Source: Sphingomonas alpina (lineage in GTDB: Bacteria; Pseudomonadota; Alphaproteobacteria; Sphingomonadales; Sphingomonadaceae). Taken from it: a DNA stretch of 64,000 nucleotides. Position 1 is the first letter of the stretch, and every line of letters starts with the position of its first letter. The stretch spans positions 4,796,501 to 4,860,500 of the forward strand of contig NZ_CP061038.1 in NCBI RefSeq assembly GCF_014490665.1, given 5' to 3'. The notes beneath the pieces were generated by a model that was given only the letters and a program-made list of their open reading frames with translations, ran no database searches and had not been told where the DNA came from. Position numbers and translations under genes: made by a program. This document shows positions 9,207-22,148 of the stretch, one piece after another.

Positions 9207-9410
9207 ATGTTGATGTCGAACACTGATCGCCCCGCGCGGCTCCATTATATGGCCAATGGCTTTCGTGTGCTGACCACCGGCGACCATGTCGTCTGTGCGG
9301 TGTCCGGCGCGCGTATCCCGCTCGAGGATCTGCGCTACTGGAGCGTCGCTGCGCAGGAAGCCTATGCGACTGCCGAGATCGCCACCGAAGCGATGAGCCC
9401 GCCCAGATGA
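9207..9410 (+). CDS. DUF2093 domain-containing protein
   Basis: This 67-residue protein belongs to the small alphaproteobacterial family DUF2093, recognisable by the ARLHYMANGFRVLTTGDHVV core, the VSGARIPLEDLRYWS segment and the AQEAYATAEIA helix. Function is unknown. It lies 15 bases after xseA, and its stop overlaps the next ATG (ATGA at 9407), so it is in the xseA transcription unit. A second in-frame ATG is at 9213. Confidence 0.88.
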   Translation: MLMSNTDRPARLHYMANGFRVLTTGDHVVCAVSGARIPLEDLRYWSVAAQEAYATAEIATEAMSPPR

Positions 9411-10318
9411 ACCGCGTGCGGCGCTGGACCATTGGGGCGGCCGCGCTGATGCTACTCGGAAGCTGCACCACGACGCCGGAGCACGTTCAGGCGCCGCCGC
9501 CATCTCCCCGGATGGACAAGCCCACGCCACAGCTGACTCGCGATCCAGGACCGGTGACCTTCAGTTATAGCGGTCCACGCATGCAGGGCGCCGCGGTGAT
9601 CGGTATCGCGCCCGCCGGCACCAGCCTGCTGACCTTCAACGGCGCTCAGGTGCCGGTGACCGCCGATGGCCGGTTCCTGATCGCCTTCGACCGCGACGCC
9701 GGCCCCTCGGCAACGCTCGTCGCGACGCTGGAGGATGGCCGTCAGGTCGGCGATACGCTGGCCGTCGCCCCGCGCGCATGGCTGATCGAACGGCTCAATA
9801 CCCTGCCCAGATTTCCCAAGCCCGAGCCGGAAATGGCGCGGCTGCGGCCGGCCGAGCTCGCGCAGATCGCTGCCGCGCGAAGGATCCGATCCGATTCGTC
9901 GGGGTGGCGCCAGACGTTTCTATGGCCGACGACCGGGCGTATCACCGGCATGTTCGGGTCGCAGCGCGTCTATCGGGGTGAGCCCGGGGCCTATCATTCG
10001 GGTACCGATGTCGCCAAGCCGACCGGCACGCCGGTGCTGGCGCCGGCCGACGGCGTGGTCATTCTTGCCGCCGATCATCCCTTCACCCTGGAGGGCAATC
10101 TGCTGATGATCGATCACGGCATGGAGCTGAACTCGGCGTTCCTCCATCTGTCGCGGATCGACGTTCGGGTCGGCGAACGCGTCCGTCGCGGCCAGGTGGT
10201 CGGCGCGGTCGGGATGAGCGGCCGCGCCACCGGCCCGCATCTCCACTGGGGTTTGAAGTGGCGCGACGCGCGGATCGACCCGCTGCTGCTTGCAGGGCCG
10301 ATGCCGCGTGCTGAGTAG
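9407..10318 (+). CDS. M23 family metallopeptidase, lipoprotein
   Basis: The 303-residue protein carries a lipoprotein signal (LMLLGSC, Cys around residue 21), a linker and a C-terminal LytM/M23 domain (about 185-300). The zinc motif appears complete: HSGTDVAKPTGTPV supplies HxxxD and HLHWGL supplies the distal histidines. M23 enzymes cut peptidoglycan cross-links in the periplasm. It is translationally coupled to the DUF2093 gene by ATGA overlap. Confidence 0.9.
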   Translation: MNRVRRWTIGAAALMLLGSCTTTPEHVQAPPPSPRMDKPTPQLTRDPGPVTFSYSGPRMQGAAVIGIAPAGTSLLTFNGAQVPVTADGRFLIAFDRDAGPSATLVATLEDGRQVGDTLAVAPRAWLIERLNTLPRFPKPEPEMARLRPAELAQIAAARRIRSDSSGWRQTFLWPTTGRITGMFGSQRVYRGEPGAYHSGTDVAKPTGTPVLAPADGVVILAADHPFTLEGNLLMIDHGMELNSAFLHLSRIDVRVGERVRRGQVVGAVGMSGRATGPHLHWGLKWRDARIDPLLLAGPMPRAE

Positions 10319-10338: not shown

Positions 10339-10857
10339 TCAGATAACGCGCTTGACCCGAACCCCCGGCGAGCCGCCGACCCGCAACATGTAGCTGCCAA
10401 GCGCTGCGCGCTTCACCACGACATCGAGGCCGGCCTTCGGAAGACGGTAGAACGGCTTGCTGTCGATCTGGCGCCATACCGAGCCATCGACCAGTCGTAT
10501 CGTCCAGCCATTAATGTCTTCACTGGCCGATGCGATCTTGGATTCGATCTGCGCGACGGTGTCGTCTTCGTCATCACCCCCGAACAGCTTGATGCTTGGC
10601 AGGCTCAGTCCGAACAAAGTGCGCTTCGCCTGGCGCACCTGCTCCTTGTCGACGATGACGAGTTCCTTCGCCTTTTCGGCTGCGTCGAGCGCGGCGACTT
10701 CATTGTCGTAACAGGCCAAGCGGCTGGCAGAATCCTTGACTGCGCGGCAATCGACCAGTCGCTGAAAAGCCTGGGCACGGGCGGGGGGCTCCTTCTCTTT
10801 TGCCAGGGCCGGGCTGGCCGCGAGTCCGGTCAGCAGTGCGGCGTAAAACAGCTTCAT
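10339..10857 (-). CDS. Exported hypothetical protein
   Basis: The 172-residue product starts with a Sec signal peptide (MKLFYAALLTGLAASPALA). The mature part begins with an alpha-helical segment containing CRAVKDSASRLACYD, two cysteines spaced to form a disulfide. A strand-rich C-terminus with SVWRQIDSKPFYRLPKAG follows. This pattern recurs in sphingomonad exported proteins; no enzyme signature is visible. It converges with the M23 gene and is divergent from the large receptor gene. Confidence 0.7.
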   Translation of the reverse strand: MKLFYAALLTGLAASPALAKEKEPPARAQAFQRLVDCRAVKDSASRLACYDNEVAALDAAEKAKELVIVDKEQVRQAKRTLFGLSLPSIKLFGGDDEDDTVAQIESKIASASEDINGWTIRLVDGSVWRQIDSKPFYRLPKAGLDVVVKRAALGSYMLRVGGSPGVRVKRVI

Positions 10858-11086: not shown

Positions 11087-14000
11087 GTGAATAAATTTAC
11101 AACCATCGCGAAGCTCAGGAACGGCGCCGCGCCGATCGTGCTGGGCCTGGCGTTGATCTCCGGGCCAGCCTTTGCTCAGGCAGCCGATCCGCAGGCCGCT
11201 GAACTTCCGGCGACTGCCACCGACACCAGCGCGCCGACGGACGACATCGTCGTTACCGGTTCGCGCATCCCGCAGCCGAACCTCGAAGGGCTCAGCCCCG
11301 TCACCATCGTCAGCAACCAGGACATCAAGCTCCAGGGCACGACGCGAATCGAGGACATGCTCAATTCGTTGCCGTCGGTCTATGCAAGCCAGTCCTCGAC
11401 CGTTTCGAACGGTGCCGACGGCACGGCGTCGATCGATCTTCGCGGTTTGGGGACGAGCCGCACGCTCAGCCTGGTCAACGGCCGCCGCCTGCTTCCGGGT
11501 GACCCGAGCCCGACCAGCGGCTCTGCCGCCGATATCAACATCATTCCGGCATCGATCCTGAAGCGCGTCGAAGTGCTGACCGGCGGTGCATCCTCCACCT
11601 ATGGCGCGGACGCGGTTGCGGGCGTCGTCAACTTCATTATCGACACCGACTTCACCGGTGTTCGGCTCGATGGCCAGTACAGCCTGTTTCAGCACAATAA
11701 TCGCGACAAGTTCCTGACGCCGCTGCTGAACGATAAAATCAAGGCCGGCGTCGCTGGCTTCGATTATCCTCAAGGTAATGTCGCTGATGGCGGCACGATC
11801 GACGCCACGATTTCGATCGGCAGCAAATTTGCCGATGATCGCGGTCATGCGCTGGTTTATTTCGGCTACCGGAAGGTCAACGCGGTCTTGCAGTCCAGGC
11901 GCGACTATAGCGCCTGCGTCCTGCAGAACAGCCGAGCAGGCGTGCCGACCTGCGGCGGATCCGCCACCTCGGACAACGGCAATGCGGTCGTGTTTGCCGA
12001 TCCTCGTGGGACCGGTATCACGTCGACGATCTACACTTTCGCGCCCGGCGGCGGATTTAATAATGCCACCAGCCTCTACAACTTCGCCCCGACTAATTAT
12101 TATCAGCGGCCGGACGAGCGCTACACCGCTGGTCTGTTCGCCAATTATGAAATCAATGACTCGATCAAGCCTTACGTCGAGTTCATGTTCATGGACGATC
12201 GAACGGTCGCGCAGATCGCTCCTTCGGGCGATTTCGGTAATACCCAGACGATCAATTCGGACAATCCGCTGCTGTCAGCAGCCCAGCGCGCTATTGTCTT
12301 CACGCCTGGGAACATGATTAACGGGCTCTTCCCCGGAACCACCACACCGATACCGGTCGGGGCGTCGTATAACCCGAATCCGGGGCTTCCAGTTCTCAAT
12401 TTCACCGATCCGGTGACTGGCGCGCAATATCAAAAGGCATTCTTTCAGCTGCTGCGCCGCAATGTTGAAGGCGGTCCCCGCCAATCGGACCTGCAGCACA
12501 CCAATTTCCGTGGCGTGATCGGTACTAAGGGCGACCTGGACAAGGTCTGGTCCTACGATGCCTATTATCAATATGGGCGGTCGAACTATTCGCAGGTCTA
12601 TTCGAACGAGTTCTCGGCCGTGCGTCTCGCCCGAGCACTTGATGTCGTATCCGGTCCTGGGGGTACGCCGATTTGTCGTTCCGCTCGCGACGGAACCGAT
12701 CCGAATTGCGTACCCTATAATGTCTTTGGCGGCGCGGGTGCTGCGAGCCAGGCGTCGGTTGACTATTTGTCCGCGACCGGTTTCCAGAAGGGCCAGACGT
12801 CGGAGCAGATTGCGAGCGTTTCGGTCACCGGTTTGCTGGGCGACTATGGCCTCAAGACCCCTTGGACGAACGACGGAGTGGCGGTGAACTTCGGTGCCGA
12901 GTATCGCAAGGAGTCGCTTGAACTTCAGACTGACAACGCCTTCCAGACCGGTGATCTGACTGGTCAAGGTGGCGCGACGTTGCCGATTTCAGGGAATTTC
13001 CGCGTCCTGGAATTCTTTGGTGAGGCGCAGGTGCCGCTCGTCCATGACAGCTTCATCTACGATCTGTCGCTGAACGCGGGTTATCGCCGCTCATCGTACA
13101 AGACGAGCGCGGACCGGAGTTACGACACCGACACTTTCAAGGTCGGTCTGGAATTCGCGCCGATCCGCGGCGTTCGCTTCCGTGGCACCTACAATCGCGC
13201 TGCACGTGCGCCGAACATTCAGGAACTGTTCGCAACGCCGACGGTGGGTCTCAACGGCTCCACCGATCCCTGCTCTGGCCATCAGATCACGGCGGCGGAA
13301 TTTGGCTGCCGTGCGCAGGGCCTCGTTGTCGGCCAGCAGACGGCCGGCAACCCATCAGGTCAGTATAATGGCCTGATCGGCGGCAACCCCGATCTGCGGC
13401 CCGAAATCGCGACCACCAAGACGGTCGGTATCGTGCTTCAGCCCACGTTCCTGCCTGGTTTCTCGCTGACGGTCGACTGGTTTGACATCAAGATCCGGGA
13501 TACGATCGCACCGCCTGCTCAGGACGCTATCCTCAAGGATTGCGTACTCAACGCGACGGCGACCTTCACGCCATTGTCATGCTCCATGGTCAGGCGCGAT
13601 GCAGCCGGGTCGCTCTGGCTGTCGACCAATGGTTATGTCGATAACATCCCGAACAATCTTGGTACCGCCAATACCCGTGGTATCGAAGTCAACTCGGCCT
13701 GGTCGACCGGCCTCGGCAACTTTGGCAATCTCAGCCTCAGCCTGACAGGCACCTATCTCGACAAATATGCGATCGATAATGGTGTCACCCAGCCCTATGA
13801 CTGCGCCGGCCTTTATGGGCCGACCTGCAGCGCTGGCGGTACCGTCAGCAGCGGCGCGCCAATGCCCAAGTGGCGCCATAAGGCACGTGCCACTCTGACG
13901 CTGCCGGACGGCATCGGTCTCTCGCTGCAGTGGCGCTATGTCGGCAAGGTGAAGGCCGAAACGCTAGAGGCGAACCAGTCGCTCCACGGCGACTTCAACT

Positions 14001-14254
14001 TCGACCCGGGCCTGCACGTCAAGGCGGTCAACTATTTCGATCTGGCCACGACGTTCAACGTTGCCGACAAGTTCACCTTCCGCGTGGGTGCGAACAACAT
14101 CTTCGACAAACAGCCGCCATACATCACCAGCGGCAATGGCGGTCGTGATGGTTCGAACCTGTGCCCGAGCGGTCCGTGCAACGGCAATACCTATCCCGCC
14201 ACCTGGGATGCGCTGGGCCGCTACCTCTATGCGGGTGTAACGCTGGACTTCTAA
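11087..14254 (+). CDS. TonB-dependent outer-membrane receptor (1055 residues)
   Basis: This is a very large outer-membrane transporter. Translation starts at GTG 11087 with upstream AAGGAACAGGGA; a frame extension to 10946 lacks a site and a signal. The signal peptide (GLALISGPAFAQA) is followed by a TonB-box-like DDIVVTGSRI at about residues 53-62, a plug domain (about 70-185, with VNGRRLLPGD and GGASSTYGADAVAGVVNFI), and a beta-barrel that ends in the terminal aromatic YAGVTLDF. Barrels of this length and plug type are common in sphingomonads and import large or unusual substrates by TonB energy. The substrate is unknown. It heads the sulfotransferase/hydroxylase cluster. Confidence 0.93.
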   Translation: MNKFTTIAKLRNGAAPIVLGLALISGPAFAQAADPQAAELPATATDTSAPTDDIVVTGSRIPQPNLEGLSPVTIVSNQDIKLQGTTRIEDMLNSLPSVYASQSSTVSNGADGTASIDLRGLGTSRTLSLVNGRRLLPGDPSPTSGSAADINIIPASILKRVEVLTGGASSTYGADAVAGVVNFIIDTDFTGVRLDGQYSLFQHNNRDKFLTPLLNDKIKAGVAGFDYPQGNVADGGTIDATISIGSKFADDRGHALVYFGYRKVNAVLQSRRDYSACVLQNSRAGVPTCGGSATSDNGNAVVFADPRGTGITSTIYTFAPGGGFNNATSLYNFAPTNYYQRPDERYTAGLFANYEINDSIKPYVEFMFMDDRTVAQIAPSGDFGNTQTINSDNPLLSAAQRAIVFTPGNMINGLFPGTTTPIPVGASYNPNPGLPVLNFTDPVTGAQYQKAFFQLLRRNVEGGPRQSDLQHTNFRGVIGTKGDLDKVWSYDAYYQYGRSNYSQVYSNEFSAVRLARALDVVSGPGGTPICRSARDGTDPNCVPYNVFGGAGAASQASVDYLSATGFQKGQTSEQIASVSVTGLLGDYGLKTPWTNDGVAVNFGAEYRKESLELQTDNAFQTGDLTGQGGATLPISGNFRVLEFFGEAQVPLVHDSFIYDLSLNAGYRRSSYKTSADRSYDTDTFKVGLEFAPIRGVRFRGTYNRAARAPNIQELFATPTVGLNGSTDPCSGHQITAAEFGCRAQGLVVGQQTAGNPSGQYNGLIGGNPDLRPEIATTKTVGIVLQPTFLPGFSLTVDWFDIKIRDTIAPPAQDAILKDCVLNATATFTPLSCSMVRRDAAGSLWLSTNGYVDNIPNNLGTANTRGIEVNSAWSTGLGNFGNLSLSLTGTYLDKYAIDNGVTQPYDCAGLYGPTCSAGGTVSSGAPMPKWRHKARATLTLPDGIGLSLQWRYVGKVKAETLEANQSLHGDFNFDPGLHVKAVNYFDLATTFNVADKFTFRVGANNIFDKQPPYITSGNGGRDGSNLCPSGPCNGNTYPATWDALGRYLYAGVTLDF

Positions 14255-14279
14255 TATCGTCGGAAAATTTCGACTCTTC

Positions 14280-14315
14280 GGGCGGCTGGTCTTCGGATCA
14301 GCCGCCCTTTCTTTT
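14280..14315 (+). terminator. Rho-independent terminator with TTCG tetraloop
   Basis: A 12-bp stem (14280-14291 with 14296-14307, one G-T pair) closes a TTCG loop and is followed by TTTCTTTT. It lies 26 bases after the receptor stop, so the receptor transcript largely ends here, with any downstream transcription by read-through or a separate promoter. Confidence 0.88.
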
Positions 14316-14382
14316 CCCCGTTCTGCCCGGTGATGGCCGCTTTGGATTGCATCGAAGGGGCAGAGCGGTTCAAACTGCAAAG

Positions 14383-16395
14383 ATGACGACTGCATCCATG
14401 CTAGACCCGCTCACCGTCGACGTTCTCAGGCGCGCAATGGGTGCCGCCCAGGGCGGAGACATGCCTCGCGCAATTCAACTGGCCGGGGATGCGCTGTTGC
14501 AAGGCGGCGACACGGTGGCCCTCAATGCGTTTCTCGGTATGGCGCGAGCTCGTATCGGCGATCCTGTCGGCGCAATCCGCCATTTGCGGGAAGCTCATCG
14601 CGGCCGGCCTGATGACGCCACGATCGCTTGCAACCTGATCTCCGCTTTGATCGACTCCGGCGAACTGGCTGGCGCACTCGATATCGCGACGCGCGAATTG
14701 TCCTTCTCGGATCCGACGTTGCGGATCGCGCGCTATCGCGGGTTTCTCGCCCAGTCACTTGAGAATTTCGCAGAAGCGGCCGAAGCCTATGAGTATGTGA
14801 TCGCGCGCGCGCCGAATGATTTCGAGAGTTTCAATAACCTGGGCAATGCGAGATCGGCGTTGGGCGATTTCGACGGTAGTGTCGCCGCTCTTCAGCGAGC
14901 GGTTGAGCTCGACCCATCAGCTCCTCCCACACGCCTGAACCTCGCATCCGTACTTCGCGCGGCCGGTCGACCCGCGGAAGTCGAAAGCGTGCTGCGCACT
15001 GCTGCCAAGGATTTCCCGCAGGATGCCCGCTCTCTGCGTGAGCTCTATATCGAACTGAAACGTGACGGGCGGCAGGACGAGGCGTGGTGGGCAATCGAGG
15101 AGGCCGTCACGCGCGATCCCGACGATGCAGACCTGCAGCTCAAATATGGCGTCGAATGTGGATTGATCCAGCGGGTCGACGATGCGGAGCGCGCCTATCG
15201 CAAGGTCGTGGCTCTCGAGCCGCAGCAGATGGATGCCTATGCCGGTCTGGCAATCCAATACGAACACACCAATCGCGAGGAGGAATTCGCGCCGCTGATT
15301 GCGCTCGCCGAGGCGAATGGCGTGGACCGGGGCGCGCTCGAGTTCCTGCGGGCGATGGAGCATCGTCGGGCCGGGCGGTTTGAGGAGGGGCTCAAGAGCC
15401 TGACGATGGTGCCGCCCGAGTTCGAGCCGGAACGCAGCGCACATCTTCGTGGGACGCTATTGGATCGGCTCGGCCGGTCAGATGAGGCCTTCGCCGCGTT
15501 CGCCGAAACCAGTCGGTTGCACCAGGGAAACCCCGTCGATCCCATTTCCCGCGCCGCCGATTTTCGTGCGGAAATTCGTCAGGAGGTTGCCTTGCTCACA
15601 CCGGCGTGGCGGACGAGCTGGTCTCGGGAAACGGTCGTGCCGGAGCGGCCGGATCCGGTTTTCCTCGTTGGCTTTCCGCGATCGGGTACGACGTTGCTCG
15701 ACACGATCCTGATGGGTCATCCCGATACAGTCGTGCTGGAGGAAAAACCTCCATTGAGCCTGACCGATAAGGCGATTGGTGGGCTGGCGGCCATTCCGAC
15801 GCTCGATGCGCTCGGCATCGCCGATGCACGCCGACATTACTTCGATGAGGTGAATAAAATTCAGGAGGTCGAAACATCAAGCCTCCTGATCGATAAATCG
15901 CCGCTCTTCCTGCATAAGGTACCGCTCATTCAGCGCCTTTTCCCGAATGCGCGATTCATTTTGGCGCTACGCCATCCATGCGACGTTCTCCTGAGTTGTT
16001 TCATGAGCAATTTTCGCCTGAATCCGGCGATGTCCAACTTTCTTCGGCTCGATGACGCAGCCGAGTTTTATGACCTGACGTTCCAGCATTGGGAAAGATC
16101 GCGTGCGTTGTTCCCGATCAATGTACATACGATTTTCTATGAGCGATTGATCGACGACGTCGAGGGGGAGGTTCGCCCGCTGTTCGATTTTCTCGGTCTG
16201 GAATGGCATGCCGATGCGCTCGACCATCAGCGTACCGCCAAGAAGCGCGGCTTGATCACGACCGCAAGCTATTCACAGGTAACGGAGCCGATCTACAAAC
16301 GCGCCGCCGGTCGCTGGGAACGCTACCGGCCACATCTGGAGCTGATCCTGCCAGTGCTTGAGCCTTGGATAGCGAAGTTCGGTTATTCGCTTTGA
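14383..16395 (+). CDS. TPR-repeat sulfotransferase
   Basis: The 670-residue protein has about ten tetratricopeptide-like helix pairs (about 10-410, for example FESFNNLGNARSALGDFDGS and DPDDADLQLKYGVECG) followed by a sulfotransferase domain (about 425-665). The PAPS 5'-phosphosulfate loop is VFLVGFPRSGTTLLDTIL near residue 425, and LALRHPCDVLLSCFMSNF is the 3'-phosphate-binding segment. It has no signal peptide and is probably cytoplasmic. The family transfers sulfate to proteins or small molecules; the TPR part suggests a protein target. ATG 14383 is chosen, with ATG 14398 possible. The next gene starts 2 bases after its stop. Confidence 0.9.
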   Translation: MTTASMLDPLTVDVLRRAMGAAQGGDMPRAIQLAGDALLQGGDTVALNAFLGMARARIGDPVGAIRHLREAHRGRPDDATIACNLISALIDSGELAGALDIATRELSFSDPTLRIARYRGFLAQSLENFAEAAEAYEYVIARAPNDFESFNNLGNARSALGDFDGSVAALQRAVELDPSAPPTRLNLASVLRAAGRPAEVESVLRTAAKDFPQDARSLRELYIELKRDGRQDEAWWAIEEAVTRDPDDADLQLKYGVECGLIQRVDDAERAYRKVVALEPQQMDAYAGLAIQYEHTNREEEFAPLIALAEANGVDRGALEFLRAMEHRRAGRFEEGLKSLTMVPPEFEPERSAHLRGTLLDRLGRSDEAFAAFAETSRLHQGNPVDPISRAADFRAEIRQEVALLTPAWRTSWSRETVVPERPDPVFLVGFPRSGTTLLDTILMGHPDTVVLEEKPPLSLTDKAIGGLAAIPTLDALGIADARRHYFDEVNKIQEVETSSLLIDKSPLFLHKVPLIQRLFPNARFILALRHPCDVLLSCFMSNFRLNPAMSNFLRLDDAAEFYDLTFQHWERSRALFPINVHTIFYERLIDDVEGEVRPLFDFLGLEWHADALDHQRTAKKRGLITTASYSQVTEPIYKRAAGRWERYRPHLELILPVLEPWIAKFGYSL

Positions 16396-16397
16396 CC

Positions 16398-17552
16398 ATG
16401 AGCTTGGCATCTCTTCTGGGGGAGGCTGATCGGGCTCTAGCCGCGCAGGACTTTACCCGAGCTCAGAAGCTGTTGCGCGAAGCGGCTCTGGCGCAGCCGG
16501 AGGATCTGTCGATCTTCTTGAAACTAGCCGGGGTCAGCCGTGCTATCGGCCAGTTCGGCGTCGCGCTCGATGCCGTGCATCGCGCACTCTCTCTCTCCCC
16601 ACTGGATTTTACCGCGCTTCTCATGCGAGCCGGGCTATTGGATCGAGCGGGGGATCCAATGGCGGGGGAGGCTTGGGGCCATGCCCTTGCCCAGAAGCCG
16701 GATGGTCAGTTACCGCCGCAGATGGCCGCGGTACTTGCGGAGGGGGAGCGTCGGCACGCTGCCTGGCTCGATGCGCGCGAGCAGCGATTGGAAGCCGCGA
16801 TGGCCGTTGCTGAGCAACAAGCGGATGACGAGGAGCGGAAACGCATCGCGCGTTTCAGGAGCAATGCGCTGCGCCGCACACGACATTTTCACAGTGAGCC
16901 GACCCATTTTCATTTTCCAGGTCTGGTTGAGCGCGAATTCCATCCCCGCACACTGTTCCCATGGCTGGCCGAGCTCGAAGCGGAAACCCGAATCATCGTT
17001 GCCGAGCTGGAAGCAGTCATGTCGGCCGAGCGCGCTGAGCTTGTGCCATACATCCAATACGCGGACCACCTTCCGCTTCAGCAATGGCGGCCCTTGAACC
17101 ACAATGCCGATTGGACGGCCATTCACCTATGGAAGAACGGTCATAAGGTCGAGGCCAACTCCCGCCATTGTCCGCGCACTCTCGAACTGCTCGAACGACT
17201 TCCCCAGCCAGTGATACCGGGTGCCTCGCCCAATGCGATGTTTTCGCTGCTTGCGCCAAGGACCCAGATTCCACCGCATGTCGGCATCAACAATGGACGG
17301 CTGGTCTGCCATCTTCCGCTCGTTGTGCCGGCAGGCTGCTGGTTTCGTGTCGGTGCCGAACGGCGACACTGGCAGCGTGGAGAAGCCTTTATATTCGACG
17401 ACACCATTGAGCATGAAGCGGCGAATCCAACCGATCAGCTTCGCATCGTCTTCATTTGCGATATTTGGCACCCCGATCTCAGCACTATCGAGCGTGAGGC
17501 GATCGCGGCGCTTATCGCTGCCGAAGACGGAGTATCGGCGGTTGGCCTGTGA
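16398..17552 (+). CDS. TPR-containing aspartyl/asparaginyl beta-hydroxylase-like protein
   Basis: The 384-residue protein has a short N-terminal TPR segment (about 4-100, with AAQDFTRAQKLLREAALAQP), a helical linker, and a C-terminal Asp/Asn hydroxylase fold (PF05118, about 190-375). Diagnostic parts are the IPPHVGINNGRLVCHLPL strand pair, GCWFRVG, and FIFDDTIEHEAANPTD. The first and last carry histidines equivalent to the iron ligands, and the first also the RLVCHLPL arginine used for 2-oxoglutarate. The family hydroxylates Asp/Asn in proteins. The last four bases overlap the next gene (GTGA at 17549). Confidence 0.87.
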   Translation: MSLASLLGEADRALAAQDFTRAQKLLREAALAQPEDLSIFLKLAGVSRAIGQFGVALDAVHRALSLSPLDFTALLMRAGLLDRAGDPMAGEAWGHALAQKPDGQLPPQMAAVLAEGERRHAAWLDAREQRLEAAMAVAEQQADDEERKRIARFRSNALRRTRHFHSEPTHFHFPGLVEREFHPRTLFPWLAELEAETRIIVAELEAVMSAERAELVPYIQYADHLPLQQWRPLNHNADWTAIHLWKNGHKVEANSRHCPRTLELLERLPQPVIPGASPNAMFSLLAPRTQIPPHVGINNGRLVCHLPLVVPAGCWFRVGAERRHWQRGEAFIFDDTIEHEAANPTDQLRIVFICDIWHPDLSTIEREAIAALIAAEDGVSAVGL

Positions 17553-19057
17553 CTTTCGAGGTTCGGCTCGCATCGATTCTCAATGGTCGATTCAATAGAG
17601 ACAGTCTCGCCGATCTGGCCGGGCTGGCACTTGATGCAGGTGAGGAAGAGCGCGCATTACCGTTGCTCGAACGGGCAGCGCGGGGTTCGATGGATGCCCG
17701 TTTATGGCAATGGACTGGCCTGTTGCAACGAGCGCTGGACCAGCACGAAGCTGCACTACAATCGTTTGGGCAAGCGGTCAGGCTGGCGCCTTCTGACGTC
17801 AGTATTGCCCGTGGCCATGCTCAGGTAACGTTCGAGGCGGGTCTCGATGCCATCGCTCTCTTTGAACGGGCGTGCCGCCTCGCTCCGATGGCGGGCGATA
17901 TGGTCCTTGGCCTTGCCGCAGCGCGTATGGCCATGGGACGCGGCGAGGAAGCGGCCGCGGCTCTCGATACGATCCTCATTCGATCGCCAATGTGGATTGA
18001 GGGGCATACGCAGCTCGCGCAACTTCGCTCAATGCTGGGTCAGCCCCAGGCTGTGGAAACATCCTTGATGCGAGCGCTGGCGGCGCAGCCCGGCGAAAGC
18101 GCGCTGTGGTATGCTCTCTTTGACCTCCATCTGCGCCGTGAGGATTATGCGACCCTTGCCGACCGGGTGAACGCAGCGGAAAAAGCCGGACAAGCCGACC
18201 CGTTCTGCGCCGAGTACAGAGCAATTGCTGCGGCCGAACTCGGCGACGAAGAGCGTGCGGATACGTTGTTCGACGTCGCCTCTGCCATGGAATCAAAGCT
18301 TGCCATATGGCGAATTCGTCATCTGCTGCGAAGCGGACGGGCTGAATGGGCATCGCGGCTGATCGATAATGAACTGATGACGGAGCGCGCGACTGCCGTC
18401 TGGCCTTATGCCGCTGCAACGTGGCGCCTGACCGGAGACTCCCGGGGCGAATGGCTGGAAAACGACTCTCGGTTTGTGACGGTGATGGATCTTGAGCGGA
18501 ATCTACCTCCGCTTGAACAGCTTGCTGCACTGCTGCGATCGCTGCATGTCGCAAAGGGGGAGTATCTGGATCAGTCAGTTCGTGGCGGGACCCAGACGGA
18601 CGGGCCTTTGCTCAGTCGTATCGAGCCGATAATCCGTACCGCACGCGATGCCATAACGCAGGCTGTGACGCGTTATATTGCCCAACTTCCACCGCCCGAT
18701 CCTTCGCACCCGCTCCTGGCTGGTCGTCGCGATCGCCGCGTGCGCTTTGCTGGCAGCTGGTCGGTTCGGCTCGCGGCAAGCGGGCACCATTCCAATCACG
18801 TCCATCCTCAGGGCTGGATCAGTTCGGCGCTCTATGTCTCGCTTCCCCGGCGCCAGCCGGATGAGTCTGCCCATGCTGGTTGGCTGGTGCTTGGCGAGCC
18901 TCCGGCGGCGCTTGGCCTTGATCTACCGCCGCGACGAATGATCGAACCCCGCGAGGGACAGCTGATATTATTCCCCTCCTGGATGTGGCACGGTACGCGA
19001 CGCTTTGCGCAAGGGGAGAGACTGACCATCGCCTTCGACGTCGCGCCACCGCGTTAG
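17549..19057 (+). CDS. TPR-containing 2OG-Fe(II) oxygenase
   Basis: The 502-residue protein starts GTG 17549, coupled to the previous stop. The N-terminal two thirds are degenerate TPR repeats (for example DQHEAALQSFGQAVRLAPSD, GRGEEAAAALDTILIRSP). The C-terminal 110 residues match the putative 2OG-Fe(II) oxygenase type PF13759: HHSNHVHPQGWISSALYVS, AGWLVLGEPP and LILFPSWMWHGTRRF, with candidate iron ligand histidines in the first and third. Probable role is hydroxylation of a protein or peptide in the cytoplasm. Together with the previous two genes it forms a tight three-gene operon. Confidence 0.85.
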   Translation: MTFEVRLASILNGRFNRDSLADLAGLALDAGEEERALPLLERAARGSMDARLWQWTGLLQRALDQHEAALQSFGQAVRLAPSDVSIARGHAQVTFEAGLDAIALFERACRLAPMAGDMVLGLAAARMAMGRGEEAAAALDTILIRSPMWIEGHTQLAQLRSMLGQPQAVETSLMRALAAQPGESALWYALFDLHLRREDYATLADRVNAAEKAGQADPFCAEYRAIAAAELGDEERADTLFDVASAMESKLAIWRIRHLLRSGRAEWASRLIDNELMTERATAVWPYAAATWRLTGDSRGEWLENDSRFVTVMDLERNLPPLEQLAALLRSLHVAKGEYLDQSVRGGTQTDGPLLSRIEPIIRTARDAITQAVTRYIAQLPPPDPSHPLLAGRRDRRVRFAGSWSVRLAASGHHSNHVHPQGWISSALYVSLPRRQPDESAHAGWLVLGEPPAALGLDLPPRRMIEPREGQLILFPSWMWHGTRRFAQGERLTIAFDVAPPR

Positions 19058-19151
19058 GCCAGGGATCGGGGTTGTCGTTTCGAAAAGTCTGGGTTTTCAC
19101 TTTCGTCTGTTATAGTTTCAAAGCAACTCTTCAGCCTTGAAAGGATAGAAA

Positions 19152-19424
19152 GTGAACCATGTCGCTCGGCGGGCCGTTTTTGGGTTGCTGGTCAGCTTCG
19201 CACTGACCACACCCGCGATGGCGAAGGAGGGCACGCCTTCAGATGCCAGGAAAAAGAATGATCCAAACGAGGTCGTCTGCCAGAAGGAAGAGGTACTCGG
19301 AAGCCGTCTTGCGGTGCGACGGGTCTGCAAGACGCGGAGCGAATGGGCCGCCCAACGTCAAAATGATCGTGCGATGGTCCAGCAAACTCAGGTCGGTTCG
19401 TGCCAGAGGCAAGCGGGCTGTTGA
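19152..19424 (+). CDS. Small exported cysteine-containing protein
   Basis: The 90-residue product has a signal peptide (FGLLVSFALTTPAMA, cut near residue 24) and a mature part of about 66 residues with four cysteines, in DPNEVVCQKEEVLGSRL, RRVCKTRSEWAAQ and the tail GSCQRQAGC. Start GTG 19152 follows AAGGATAGAA. Similar small proteins are frequent in sphingomonads but have no assigned function. It has no tyrosine but does have Asp and Asn residues. Its location after the three modifying enzymes makes it a possible substrate or partner, which is inference. Confidence 0.7.
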   Translation: MNHVARRAVFGLLVSFALTTPAMAKEGTPSDARKKNDPNEVVCQKEEVLGSRLAVRRVCKTRSEWAAQRQNDRAMVQQTQVGSCQRQAGC

Positions 19425-19512: not shown

Positions 19513-22092
19513 CTAGCCGATCGTCAACTCAAGTTTGCCATCGCCTTCATCGACCTTCACCGCCGCGCCGTCTTTCACCTCGCCGCGCAGGATCAGGTCG
19601 GCGAGCGGATCCTGCAGGTAACGCTGCACCGCCCGTTTCAATGGCCGCGCGCCATAGACCGGATCATAACCGACCCGGCCCAGCCAGGCGCGTGCCGCCT
19701 CGGTCAGATCCAGCGTCACCTTGCGGTCGGCGAGCAGCTTGCCGATCCGGCCGACCTGAATATCGACGATCGGTGCCATCTCGCTTTGGCCGAGGCGGTG
19801 GAACAAGATGATCTCATCGAGCCGGTTGAGGAATTCGGGGCGGAAATGCCCGCGCACGATTTCCATCACCTGCGGTTCGACATCGCTCACTGGCCGACCA
19901 TCGGCCAGGTTGGTGAGATACTGGCTGCCCAAATTCGAGGTCAGGATGATCAGCGTGTTGGAGAAATCGACCGTACGGCCCTGCCCGTCGGTCAGCCGGC
20001 CATCGTCGAGCACCTGAAGCAGGATGTTGAATACATCGCCATGCGCCTTCTCGACTTCGTCGAACAAAATGACCTGATAAGGCCGACGGCGAACCGATTC
20101 GGTTAGAACGCCCCCTTCTTCATAACCAACATAGCCGGGAGGTGCGCCGATCAGCCGAGCGACTGCGTGCTTCTCCATGAACTCGCTCATGTCGATACGC
20201 ACCATCGCCGAGGGATCGTCGAACAGGAATTCGGCGAGTGCCTTGGTCAGCTCGGTCTTGCCGACGCCGGTCGGGCCGAGGAACAGGAAGGAGCCAAGCG
20301 GACGGTTCGCCTCCTGCAGTCCGGCGCGCGCACGGCGCACTGCGGTCGAGACGGCATGGACCGCCTGTTGCTGGCCGATCACGCGCTTGCTGATCGCCTC
20401 TTCCATGCCGAGCAGTTTCGCCCGTTCGCCTTCGAGCATGCGGTCGACCGGAATGCCGGTCCAGCGGCTGACCACAGCGGCGATGTCGTCGGCGGTCACT
20501 TCCTCGCGCAGCATCGCGCCCTTGGTCGCGCCCGCGGCTTCGTCGAGCTGGCGCTGCAATTGCGGGATCGTGCCGTAGGACAGCTCGCCCGCCCTGGCGA
20601 GGTCGCCAGCGCGCTGTGCCTGTTCAAGTTCGAGCCGCGCCGCGTCGAGCTTTTCCTTGATCTTCGCCTCGGCCGAGATCTTGTCCTTCTCTGCCTGCCA
20701 GCGCGTGGTCAGTTCGGCCGATTGTTGCTCAAGATTGGCGAGTTCGCCTTCGAGCGCGGCAAGCCGGTCGCGCGACGCAGCGTCGCTCTCGCGCTTCAAT
20801 GCCTCGCGTTCGATCTTGAGCTGGATGATGCGCCGGTCGAGCGTCTCGATCTCTTCCGGCTTGGATTCGACCTCCATGCGGATTCGGCTCGCCGCCTCGT
20901 CCATCAGGTCGATCGCCTTGTCGGGGAGGAAACGGTCGGTGATGTAGCGGTTGCCGAGCGTCGCCGAGGCGACGATCGCCGCATCGGTGATGCGCACGCC
21001 GTGATGCAGTTCGTATTTCTCCTTCAGCCCGCGCAGGATCGAGATCGTGTCCTCGACCGTCGGCTCGCCGACGAACACCGGCTGGAAGCGCCGCTGCAGT
21101 GCCGGGTCCTTTTCGACATGCTTGCGATATTCGTCGAGCGTGGTCGCGCCGACACAGTGCAGTTCGCCGCGCGCCAGTGCCGGCTTGATCATGTTCGATG
21201 CGTCCATCGCACCTTCGGATTTGCCCGCGCCTATCAGCGTGTGCATCTCGTCGATGAACAGCACAATGTCGCCCTCGGCCGACTTCACCTCGTCAAGTAC
21301 GCCCTTGAGCCGTTCCTCGAACTCGCCGCGATATTTCGCGCCGGCGATCAGGCTGCCCATGTCGAGCGACATCAGGCGGCGGTCCTTCAGCGTATCGGGC
21401 ACGTCACCATTGGCGATGCGCAGCGCAAGGCCTTCGGCGATTGCGGTCTTGCCGACGCCGGGTTCGCCGATCAGCACCGGGTTGTTCTTGGTGCGGCGTG
21501 CGAGGATCTGAATCGTGCGGCGGATTTCCTCGTCGCGCCCGATCACTGGGTCGAGCTTGCCGTCACGCGCAGCCTGAGTCAGGTCGCGGGCGAACTTCTT
21601 CAGCGCGTCAAAACGGTCCTCGGCGCCCGCGGAATCGGCGGTCCGCCCGCCGCGCACATTGTTGATCGCGGTGTTGAGCGCATCGGCGCGAACGCCCGCC
21701 GCCTGCAGCGCCTTGCCCGCCGCCGTGTTGAGCGACAGGGCCAGTGCGACCAGCAGCCGCTCGACCGTCACGAAGCTATCGCCCGCCTTGGCGGCGATTT
21801 GCTCGGCCTGGTCGAGCACGCGCACCGCGTCATTGTCGAGGCCCGGCGTCTGCTGCGCGCCACCGCCCGACACGGCAGGGATTTTCGACAAAGCGAGGTC
21901 AGTTTCGCTCACCGCGCGCTTCGCATCACCGCCCGCCGCCGTGATCAGCCCGGCGGCCATGCCCTGTTCGTCCTCAAGCAGTGCCTTGAGCAAATGCTCG
22001 GGTGCGATCCGCTGGTGGCTCATGCGGATCGCGACGGTTTGCGCCGATTGGAGGAAGCCTTTGGCGCGGTCGGTGAATTTCTCGAGGTTCAT
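19513..22092 (-). CDS. clpB: ATP-dependent chaperone ClpB
   Basis: The 859-residue ClpB rescues aggregated protein with DnaK. All parts are present: N-terminal Clp repeats ([16 protein letters not shown]), first ATPase with [13 protein letters not shown] near residue 205, the middle coiled-coil domain (about 400-520), second ATPase with [14 protein letters not shown] near residue 605, and a C-terminal small domain. An in-frame extension to 22134 is removed in favour of ATG 22092, which gives the conserved [13 protein letters not shown]. The upstream region carries a possible heat-shock promoter. Confidence 0.97.
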
Positions 22093-22120
22093 GTTGCTCC
22101 CATCTCCACTTGCTCGTGCG

Positions 22121-22148
22121 ATATAGTGTTGCACTTATGCAACACAAC
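22121..22148 (-). promoter_or_regulatory. Candidate clpB heat-shock promoter with spacer palindrome
   Basis: On the minus strand GTTGTG (22143-22148) and CTATAT (22121-22126) are 16 bases apart and 29 bases before the clpB ATG. The -10 part resembles the alphaproteobacterial RpoH type (CYTATNT); the -35 part only weakly. A perfect palindrome GTGTTGCA-CTTA-TGCAACAC (22126-22145) fills the spacer, an ideal place for a repressor. Based on inspection only. Confidence 0.4.

Follow-up and report, generated by a model that had tools for sequence, protein, structure and literature searches.

Why a gene for a TonB-dependent receptor (TBDR) should be followed in Sphingomonas alpina by a sulfotransferase and two oxygenases is the question raised by one locus in the window, i.e., the whole stretch of 64,000 nucleotides analyzed from contig NZ_CP061038.1. 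The original prediction listed five genes here, namely the receptor, a sulfotransferase (ST), an aspartyl/asparaginyl beta-hydroxylase (AspH), a 2OG-Fe(II) oxygenase (OG) and a small secreted protein (SMALL), and all five open reading frames are present at the positions it gave (Table 1). The tight packing that it described for the enzyme genes is likewise borne out, with 2 bases separating ST from AspH and an overlap of 4 bases between AspH and OG. An anti-phage defence role was set aside, as ST, AspH, OG and SMALL matched 0 families among the PADLOC defence models at E 0.001.

Table 1. Features of the receptor–enzyme cassette and its flanks, in positions of the window
Feature	Position	Strand	Remarks
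Gene for an M23-type peptidase, marking one flank of the island	9407..10318	+	named by eye
HYP172, 172-aa secreted-looking protein, divergent from the receptor	10339..10857	-	recurrent neighbor; no Pfam match
TonB-dependent receptor (TBDR)	11087..14254	+	1055 aa from a GTG start; Pfam matches to Plug and barrel
Cys-bounded receptor segment, residues 904-914 (YDCAGLYGPTC)	13796..13828	+	typical of cassette receptors
Intrinsic-terminator-like hairpin in the receptor/enzymes interval	14280..14307	+	12 pairs, 9 G-C
TPR-sulfotransferase (ST)	14383..16395	+	TPR matches and PF13469, E 1.2e-32
Aspartyl/asparaginyl beta-hydroxylase (AspH)	16398..17552	+	PF05118, E 7e-45; TPR-like N-terminal part
TPR and 2OG-Fe(II) oxygenase (OG)	17549..19057	+	TPR matches and PF13759, E 1.1e-20
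Small secreted protein (SMALL)	19152..19424	+	predicted beta-hairpin and helix in the conserved part, which has Cys43 and Cys59
clpB, marking the island's far flank; control gene	19513..22134	-	named by eye

The family assignments made for the three enzymes hold, each matching its Pfam model above the cut-off. ST belongs to the Sulfotransfer_3 family (PF13469, 114 bits against a cut-off of 27) and carries the motifs of the PAPS site: R433, S434, G435, T437, E454, R530 and S538 are kept in 117–119 of 119 relatives, and P432, T436 and E453 in 105, 102 and 103 of these, respectively. Among solved structures its catalytic domain is closest to protein-tyrosine sulfotransferase 1 (E 2.5e-14), and the match to TPST1/TPST2 (PDB 9wp1, 5wrj, 3ap1) covers residues 21–264 of the 265-residue domain. 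It shares with them the PRSGTT motif, the glutamate pair and the arginine and serine of the PAPS site, the roles of which we take to be the customary ones. However, ST is bacterial and displays a TPR array in the place of the anchor that holds the TPSTs in the Golgi membrane.

AspH scores 153 bits against PF05118 (cut-off 22.6), with the 2OG/Fe-site residues S283, H294, R301, H305, H339 and R349 kept in 128/128 relatives, their roles presumably being those of their counterparts in human AspH. Its nearest solved relative is AspH itself (E 1.3e-28), and with PDB 5apa and 5jqy, which we take to be the human protein, it shares the PF05118 domain, the layout of TPR and oxygenase, and the residues binding the metal and 2OG. 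In contrast to human AspH, it shows no visible ER targeting, nor was an EGF-like substrate found, with Pfam listing no EGF domain in the two proteins scanned, the receptor and SMALL. The Cys-bounded segment of the receptor also does not match what we take to be the AspH consensus. OG is a member of the 2OG-FeII_Oxy_5 family (PF13759, 74 bits, cut-off 27), with the putative His/His/Arg residues H417, H419, H481 and R491 kept in 104/104 relatives. Its nearest solved relatives are uncharacterized 2OG proteins (PDB 2rg4, 3bvc), followed by prolyl-4-hydroxylases and ALKBH7; the best ten Foldseek matches are the TPR and oxygenase structures of AspH, at a TM of only about 0.3. It differs from other PF13759/TIGR02466 oxygenases in its TPR fusion and in scoring below the TIGR02466 cut-off (39 of 62.5 bits). 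As the solved structures nearest to ST and to AspH are of enzymes that modify proteins, we count them as support for the modification of a protein.

From the shared TPR regions it had been argued that the three catalytic heads see one substrate. TPR matches in Pfam are indeed found in ST and OG, but the sole TPR-type match of AspH (PF23914) lies below the cut-off (20.1 vs 42 bits). The argument is not decisive, as the pairwise likeness is short and weak (best E about 1e-4, 25–33% over 50–110 residues). Profile comparisons, which covered the three enzymes against one another only, gave E-values of 1.7e-12 for ST-AspH, 5e-22 for ST-OG and 3.8e-10 for AspH-OG; at the level of sequence this likeness is probably ordinary TPR-array similarity.

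The linkage of the receptor to the three enzymes is more than chance. The original prediction proposed a search for a conserved neighborhood co-occurring with a TBDR and the small protein; the gene order does recur, and among clusters with two or all three of the enzyme types a TBDR lies within 1.5 kb of 77/78 and a relative of SMALL within 1.5 kb of 56/78. All 43 clusters with the three enzymes together have a TBDR within this distance. At 55 of the 80 named loci at least 6 kb is available on both sides of AspH, and within 6 kb of it these have a TBDR in 51, ST in 48, OG in 44, SMALL in 38, HYP172 in 41 and an M23 label in 19 cases. The order of the genes differs among loci while the set stays. 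The S. alpina genome has five PF13469 matches, of which the three long ones align with the ST of the window (itself included) and all adjoin TBDRs. Of 20 hand-chosen divergent ST relatives, 12 have a TBDR no more than 200 bp away, and 0/20 control regions contained a TBDR. We found no paper on the linkage of TBDR, ST, AspH and OG among the open-access search listings consulted, one of them in part.

The receptor and the enzyme genes also have one common history. Receptor distances correlate with enzyme distances at r 0.71–0.95, as against 0.17–0.55 for the flanking genes (M23 0.25–0.51, HYP172 0.36–0.55, ClpB 0.17–0.21). Over 18 of 20 loci, with near-identical ones left out, the individual values are 0.93 for TBDR-ST, 0.90 for TBDR-AspH and 0.81 for TBDR-OG, with ClpB at 0.2–0.3; as partial correlations on ClpB they become 0.93, 0.90 and 0.79, and 0/2000 permutations reached the receptor–enzyme correlations. 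For SMALL the correlations are 0.65–0.76. HYP172, for its part, tracks the history of the cassette weakly.

The receptor has both the plug and the barrel of a TBDR (PF07715, 78.5 bits; PF00593, 114 bits) and scores below every NCBIfam cut-off listed. Since all but two receptors had an enzyme within 6.5 kb, they were sorted by direct adjacency to enzymes for its Cys-bounded segment: a C-x5-9-C pattern in the aligned stretch 893–930 is present in 100/106 enzyme-followed TBDRs and in 10/12 adjoining SMALL or a further gene, X, as against 6/36 other TBDRs. We infer that residues 904–914 are extracellular and closed by a disulfide. In the receptor alignment no column tracked AspH or OG at the chosen cut-offs, and no tyrosine was tied to ST in a contrast that had only the two receptors lacking a nearby enzyme. 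An earlier list of ten tyrosine columns commoner with ST was set aside, as it mixed receptor clades and included two outgroup receptors.

The terminator predicted after the receptor is real as a hairpin, and a simple scan of the fetched loci found hairpins 3′ of 96/106 enzyme-followed TBDRs as compared to 4.7% of shuffled stretches. However, 53/66 other TBDRs of these loci also carry one, ruling out a terminator special to the cassette; it is therefore a general TBDR feature here.

Accounts that do not make the receptor the target have to be weighed against these patterns. It is unlikely that SMALL is the substrate, i.e., that its precursor is sulfated and hydroxylated in the cytoplasm and, once exported, becomes the receptor's ligand, plug or partner. 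Its recurrence near the clusters, in up to four tandem copies at one locus (L045), and distances that follow the receptor's (r 0.73–0.75) more closely than those of HYP172 do (0.38–0.46) favor this account; yet SMALL is absent within 1.5 kb of 22/78 multi-enzyme clusters, where the receptor is absent near 1/78, and its relatives also occur elsewhere, e.g., near trmJ/rpsD-like genes. Moreover, it has no conserved tyrosine among 53 aligned sequences, and in an alignment of 24 the invariant columns are C, G, C and W alone. Viewed as the precursor of a RiPP gene cluster, SMALL recurs but looks Sec-exported and has no conserved core residue open to modification such as tyrosine. It matched nothing in Pfam or NCBIfam, and its model (pLDDT 76.6) nothing in Foldseek, at E 0.001. 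SMALL is a frequent accessory, and one that might touch the receptor. Distinctly unlikely, too, is that the enzymes complete a ligand encoded elsewhere, peptide or small molecule, such as a ribosomal peptide or a metallophore with beta-hydroxy-Asp and sulfate, which the receptor imports or senses. TBDRs do import ligands of these types, and a second locus of the same genome (L014) brings together a PF05118 hydroxylase, a gene of the asparagine-synthase family and one that weakly matches the sulfotransferase family; among the labelled genes, though, no precursor recurs besides SMALL. A table in PMC10040529 places lasso-peptide B2, a sulfotransferase, an aspartyl beta-hydroxylase, PqqD and an asparagine-synthase-related protein of related genera at near cluster numbers, in line with a ligand of this kind. 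L014 also bears on gene X, a reverse-strand gene of many AspH cassettes with no Pfam match in the three members scanned: one L014 gene matches both X and PF13469 (32 bits, cut-off 27), and together with an FHSAFC.STL motif this suggests that X is sulfotransferase-like.

A shared chromosomal site and transfer as a block might by themselves keep together enzymes with separate, unrelated substrates; each enzyme family is also found alone, and in many islands the site is the same, next to HYP172/M23 and clpB. This is improbable given that the set outlasts changes in gene order and that divergent ST relatives adjoin TBDRs at other places too. Modification of an envelope lipid or glycan would draw on the lipid hydroxylases that the AspH family also includes, and AspH has sub-threshold matches to OlsC (93 bits, cut-off 450) and LpxO (64 bits, cut-off 500). 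Such scores miss the NCBIfam equivalog cut-offs by far, which rejects AspH as an LpxO/OlsC enzyme, the nearest solved relatives are AspH and TPST, and TPR parts point to polypeptide substrates, making this account very improbable.

We hence regard the locus as quite probably a functional receptor-linked modification cassette. That it is a co-inherited protein-modification cassette dedicated to one TBDR clade, with the receptor precursor before export as the most likely substrate, has close to an even chance in our estimate, and the receptor itself as the modified protein is a tentative proposal. Because no signal peptide is visible by eye on ST, AspH or OG, the three would act in the cytoplasm, each TPR solenoid gripping an unfolded polypeptide, most likely the precursor of the neighboring receptor prior to Sec export. 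ST would transfer sulfate from PAPS, most likely to tyrosine, AspH would beta-hydroxylate Asp or Asn, and OG would hydroxylate some further residue. The hairpin behind the receptor might let the receptor be made in large amounts and the enzymes in small ones, the balance expected of a substrate and its catalysts, with SMALL as an accessory. The sulfated and hydroxylated surface of the mature receptor could then tune ligand binding or shield it from phages and bacteriocins.

A parallel is RaxX-RaxSTAB (PMC6637879), a bacterial system for tyrosine sulfation of a secreted peptide with type I secretion and a double-glycine leader. As there, a bacterial sulfotransferase would act on a co-encoded polypeptide before secretion; in contrast to it, the cassette combines two hydroxylases with a TBDR, and its small protein is of the Sec type, rather than relying on type I secretion and a double-glycine leader.

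In its fullest form, which we consider rather unlikely, the proposal is that the receptor is decorated before export by its own co-inherited enzymes with tyrosine sulfation, Asp/Asn beta-hydroxylation and a further 2OG-dependent hydroxylation, akin to the secretory modifications of eukaryotes, and that cassette composition diversifies the receptor surfaces of strains. Were modification of the receptor confirmed, sulfation and hydroxylation in the cytoplasm would influence ligand binding by outer-membrane receptors. TPST and AspH relatives in bacteria would then share one target, and there would be a reason why sulfotransferase genes adjoin those of TBDRs in Sphingomonadales.

All five genes of the original prediction, encoding a TonB-dependent receptor (TBDR), a TPR-sulfotransferase (ST), an Asp/Asn beta-hydroxylase (AspH), a TPR-containing 2OG-Fe(II) oxygenase (OG) and a small secreted protein (SMALL), were found where it had placed them in the window, which belongs to a single-contig genome of 5,197,460 bases, as were the 2-base gap and 4-base overlap between the enzyme genes. 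In an NCBIfam scan of the five proteins none of the matches reached the curated cut-off.

Coordinates of the cassette genes, their flanks and related genes at other loci
Feature	Location	Description
TBDR	window 11087..14254	Pfam Plug and barrel
ST	window 14383..16395	PF13469
AspH	window 16398..17552	PF05118
OG	window 17549..19057	PF13759
SMALL	window 19152..19424	no Pfam match
M23-type peptidase (named by eye)	window 9407..10318	flank/control
HYP172	window 10339..10857	172 aa, secreted-looking, no Pfam match; flank/control
clpB (named by eye)	window 19513..22134	flank/control
Divided TBDR	L011 6039-8982	source genome
Hydroxylase cluster	L014 7779-11604	G000:C1 about 1162.8-1166.6 kb
Sulfotransferase-oxygenase pair	L015 6976-8489	G000:C1 about 425-426.5 kb
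Gene X	L053 7986-8996; L043 8580-9656; others	reverse strand, about 330-450 aa, no Pfam match

Across 296 genomes of the order, ST relatives are present in 222 and OG relatives in 157 (both at E 1e-15), and AspH relatives in 140 (E 1e-10). Their neighbourhoods were studied in two sets, with gene labels from profiles made within this analysis: 80 neighbourhoods around stronger or selected enzyme matches, and 80 named loci, representing 80 of the 128 relatives in the AspH alignment and coming mainly from Sphingomonas, Sphingopyxis, Novosphingobium, Rhizorhabdus, Sphingobium and Erythrobacter/Porphyrobacter records. Among the named loci, the most frequent same-strand order is TBDR>ST>AspH>OG>SMALL (16/80), followed by TBDR>AspH>OG>ST (10/80), and AspH stands by itself in seven. 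Among the 55 with at least 6 kb available on either side of AspH, 51 have a TBDR inside that distance, 48 have ST, 44 OG, 41 HYP172 and 38 SMALL; TBDR, ST, OG and SMALL occur together in 33, and in 4 AspH is a lone gene with none of these four nearby.

Pooling both sets with the source-genome loci, and leaving out four loci whose proteins were identical as well as any cluster less than 4.5 kb from the end of a fetched stretch, yielded 136 enzyme clusters, among which near-identical loci are retained, exact duplicates apart. A TBDR lies within 1.5 kb of all 43 clusters with three enzyme types (SMALL in 36), 34 of the 35 with two (SMALL in 20) and 30 of the 58 with one (SMALL in 13); in the sole multi-enzyme exception, L091, the labelled TBDR is farther off. 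The loci were chosen by their enzymes, not via the receptor or SMALL, and are kin by descent, so that the counts are not independent events. These counts indicate that the receptor is a near-constant partner of multi-enzyme clusters (77/78), while SMALL is frequent (56/78) and dispensable. Both associations that the original prediction had proposed to look for in other genomes are present; its argument from shared TPR regions to a common protein substrate was set aside.

Pairwise distances point to a common history. Those of TBDR, ST, OG and AspH agree over 18 loci at r 0.81-0.93, and still at 0.79-0.93 once the effect of ClpB is removed (0/2000 permutations per pair), whereas the adjacent ClpB tracks them at just 0.2-0.3. 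With M23 or HYP172 as the control (27-70 loci), cassette genes agree at 0.66-0.92 versus 0.25-0.55 for the controls, and with ClpB over 39 loci TBDR-AspH reaches 0.95 versus 0.17-0.21. SMALL agrees with the cassette at 0.65-0.76 (41-59 loci). Hence, the cassette is inherited as a block distinct from its flanks, though shared history alone is no proof of physical interaction. HYP172, recurrent beside cassette receptors, tracks this history weakly.

The ST-receptor link extends further. Three of the five PF13469 matches in the source genome, including the window ST, are long proteins aligning with the latter, and each adjoins one of the TBDRs among 106 plug-domain matches. Among 20 hand-picked divergent ST relatives, 12 (L193, L194, L196-L203, L205, L207) have a TBDR within 200 bp, stretches ending at contig ends being scored as misses; the same search found none in 20 control regions of 16 kb picked by offset, one of which holds an ST-labelled gene. 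At L011 the TBDR beside the ST gene is divided between two ORFs and is possibly a broken gene.

Various related arrangements were also observed. Many cassettes carry a member of the gene X family, which bears a sulfotransferase-like motif, between their TBDR and AspH genes. Tandem expansions include several OG and ST copies (L018), four ST (L087) and four SMALL (L045). In the source genome, a Stf0 sulfotransferase gene (PF09037) overlaps a 2OG-FeII_Oxy_3 gene at L015, forming another sulfotransferase-oxygenase pair. At L014, a PF05118 hydroxylase, a weak PF13469 gene and a GATase/asparagine-synthase gene adjoin, and next to them come repeated genes labelled by eye as tail-collar-like; this is a possible lasso-peptide-like cluster, in which no precursor was found.

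The terminator predicted after the receptor is matched by a hairpin and T-run 25 bases past its stop. In most of the 80 enzyme-followed TBDRs listed, a hairpin starts about 17-31 bases past the stop. Since other TBDRs have such a hairpin too, it does not qualify as a dedicated attenuator of this cassette. It would nevertheless cut enzyme output relative to the receptor, provided that read-through is the sole source of enzyme transcripts. A sigma-70 scan of the TBDR-ST interval listed no promoter-like site, a result of little weight in this group.

As to the substrate, SMALL, a predicted hairpin plus helix, is a candidate by virtue of its frequency at multi-enzyme clusters, its co-inheritance with the cassette and its copies, numbering up to four; against this, no conserved Tyr was found in it. 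Its profile has 60 matches in 30 hand-chosen genomes (27 with a match), of which 35 by hand count from coordinates are at enzyme islands, a share biased upward because island copies had gone into the profile. In the source genome, BLAST with the window SMALL recovers itself alone and the profile three matches. Family members off the enzyme islands (L097-L107) suggest an older general role: three of five closely read loci are near trmJ/rpsD-like genes (named by eye). At L101, one further copy follows a TBDR with no labelled enzymes.

Of the three candidate substrates weighed, we tentatively favour the receptor itself, for which its near-constant presence at multi-enzyme clusters speaks. A Cys-bounded segment, C906-C914 (YDCAGLYGPTC) in the window receptor, is shared by 100 of the 106 receptors that enzyme genes follow, by 10 of the 12 next to X or SMALL and by 6 of the remaining 36. 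Half of these six (L129, L130, L143) sit immediately upstream of a cassette receptor; descent alone may explain this sharing among receptors of one clade. At the cut-offs applied, no D/N column of the receptor alignment tracks AspH and no column tested tracks OG, and Y904 is replaced by Phe in several ST-bearing cassettes. An unknown ligand is likewise a candidate. The interpretation is raised from a candidate system to a conserved receptor-linked cassette, its linkage being stronger than any single window could reveal.
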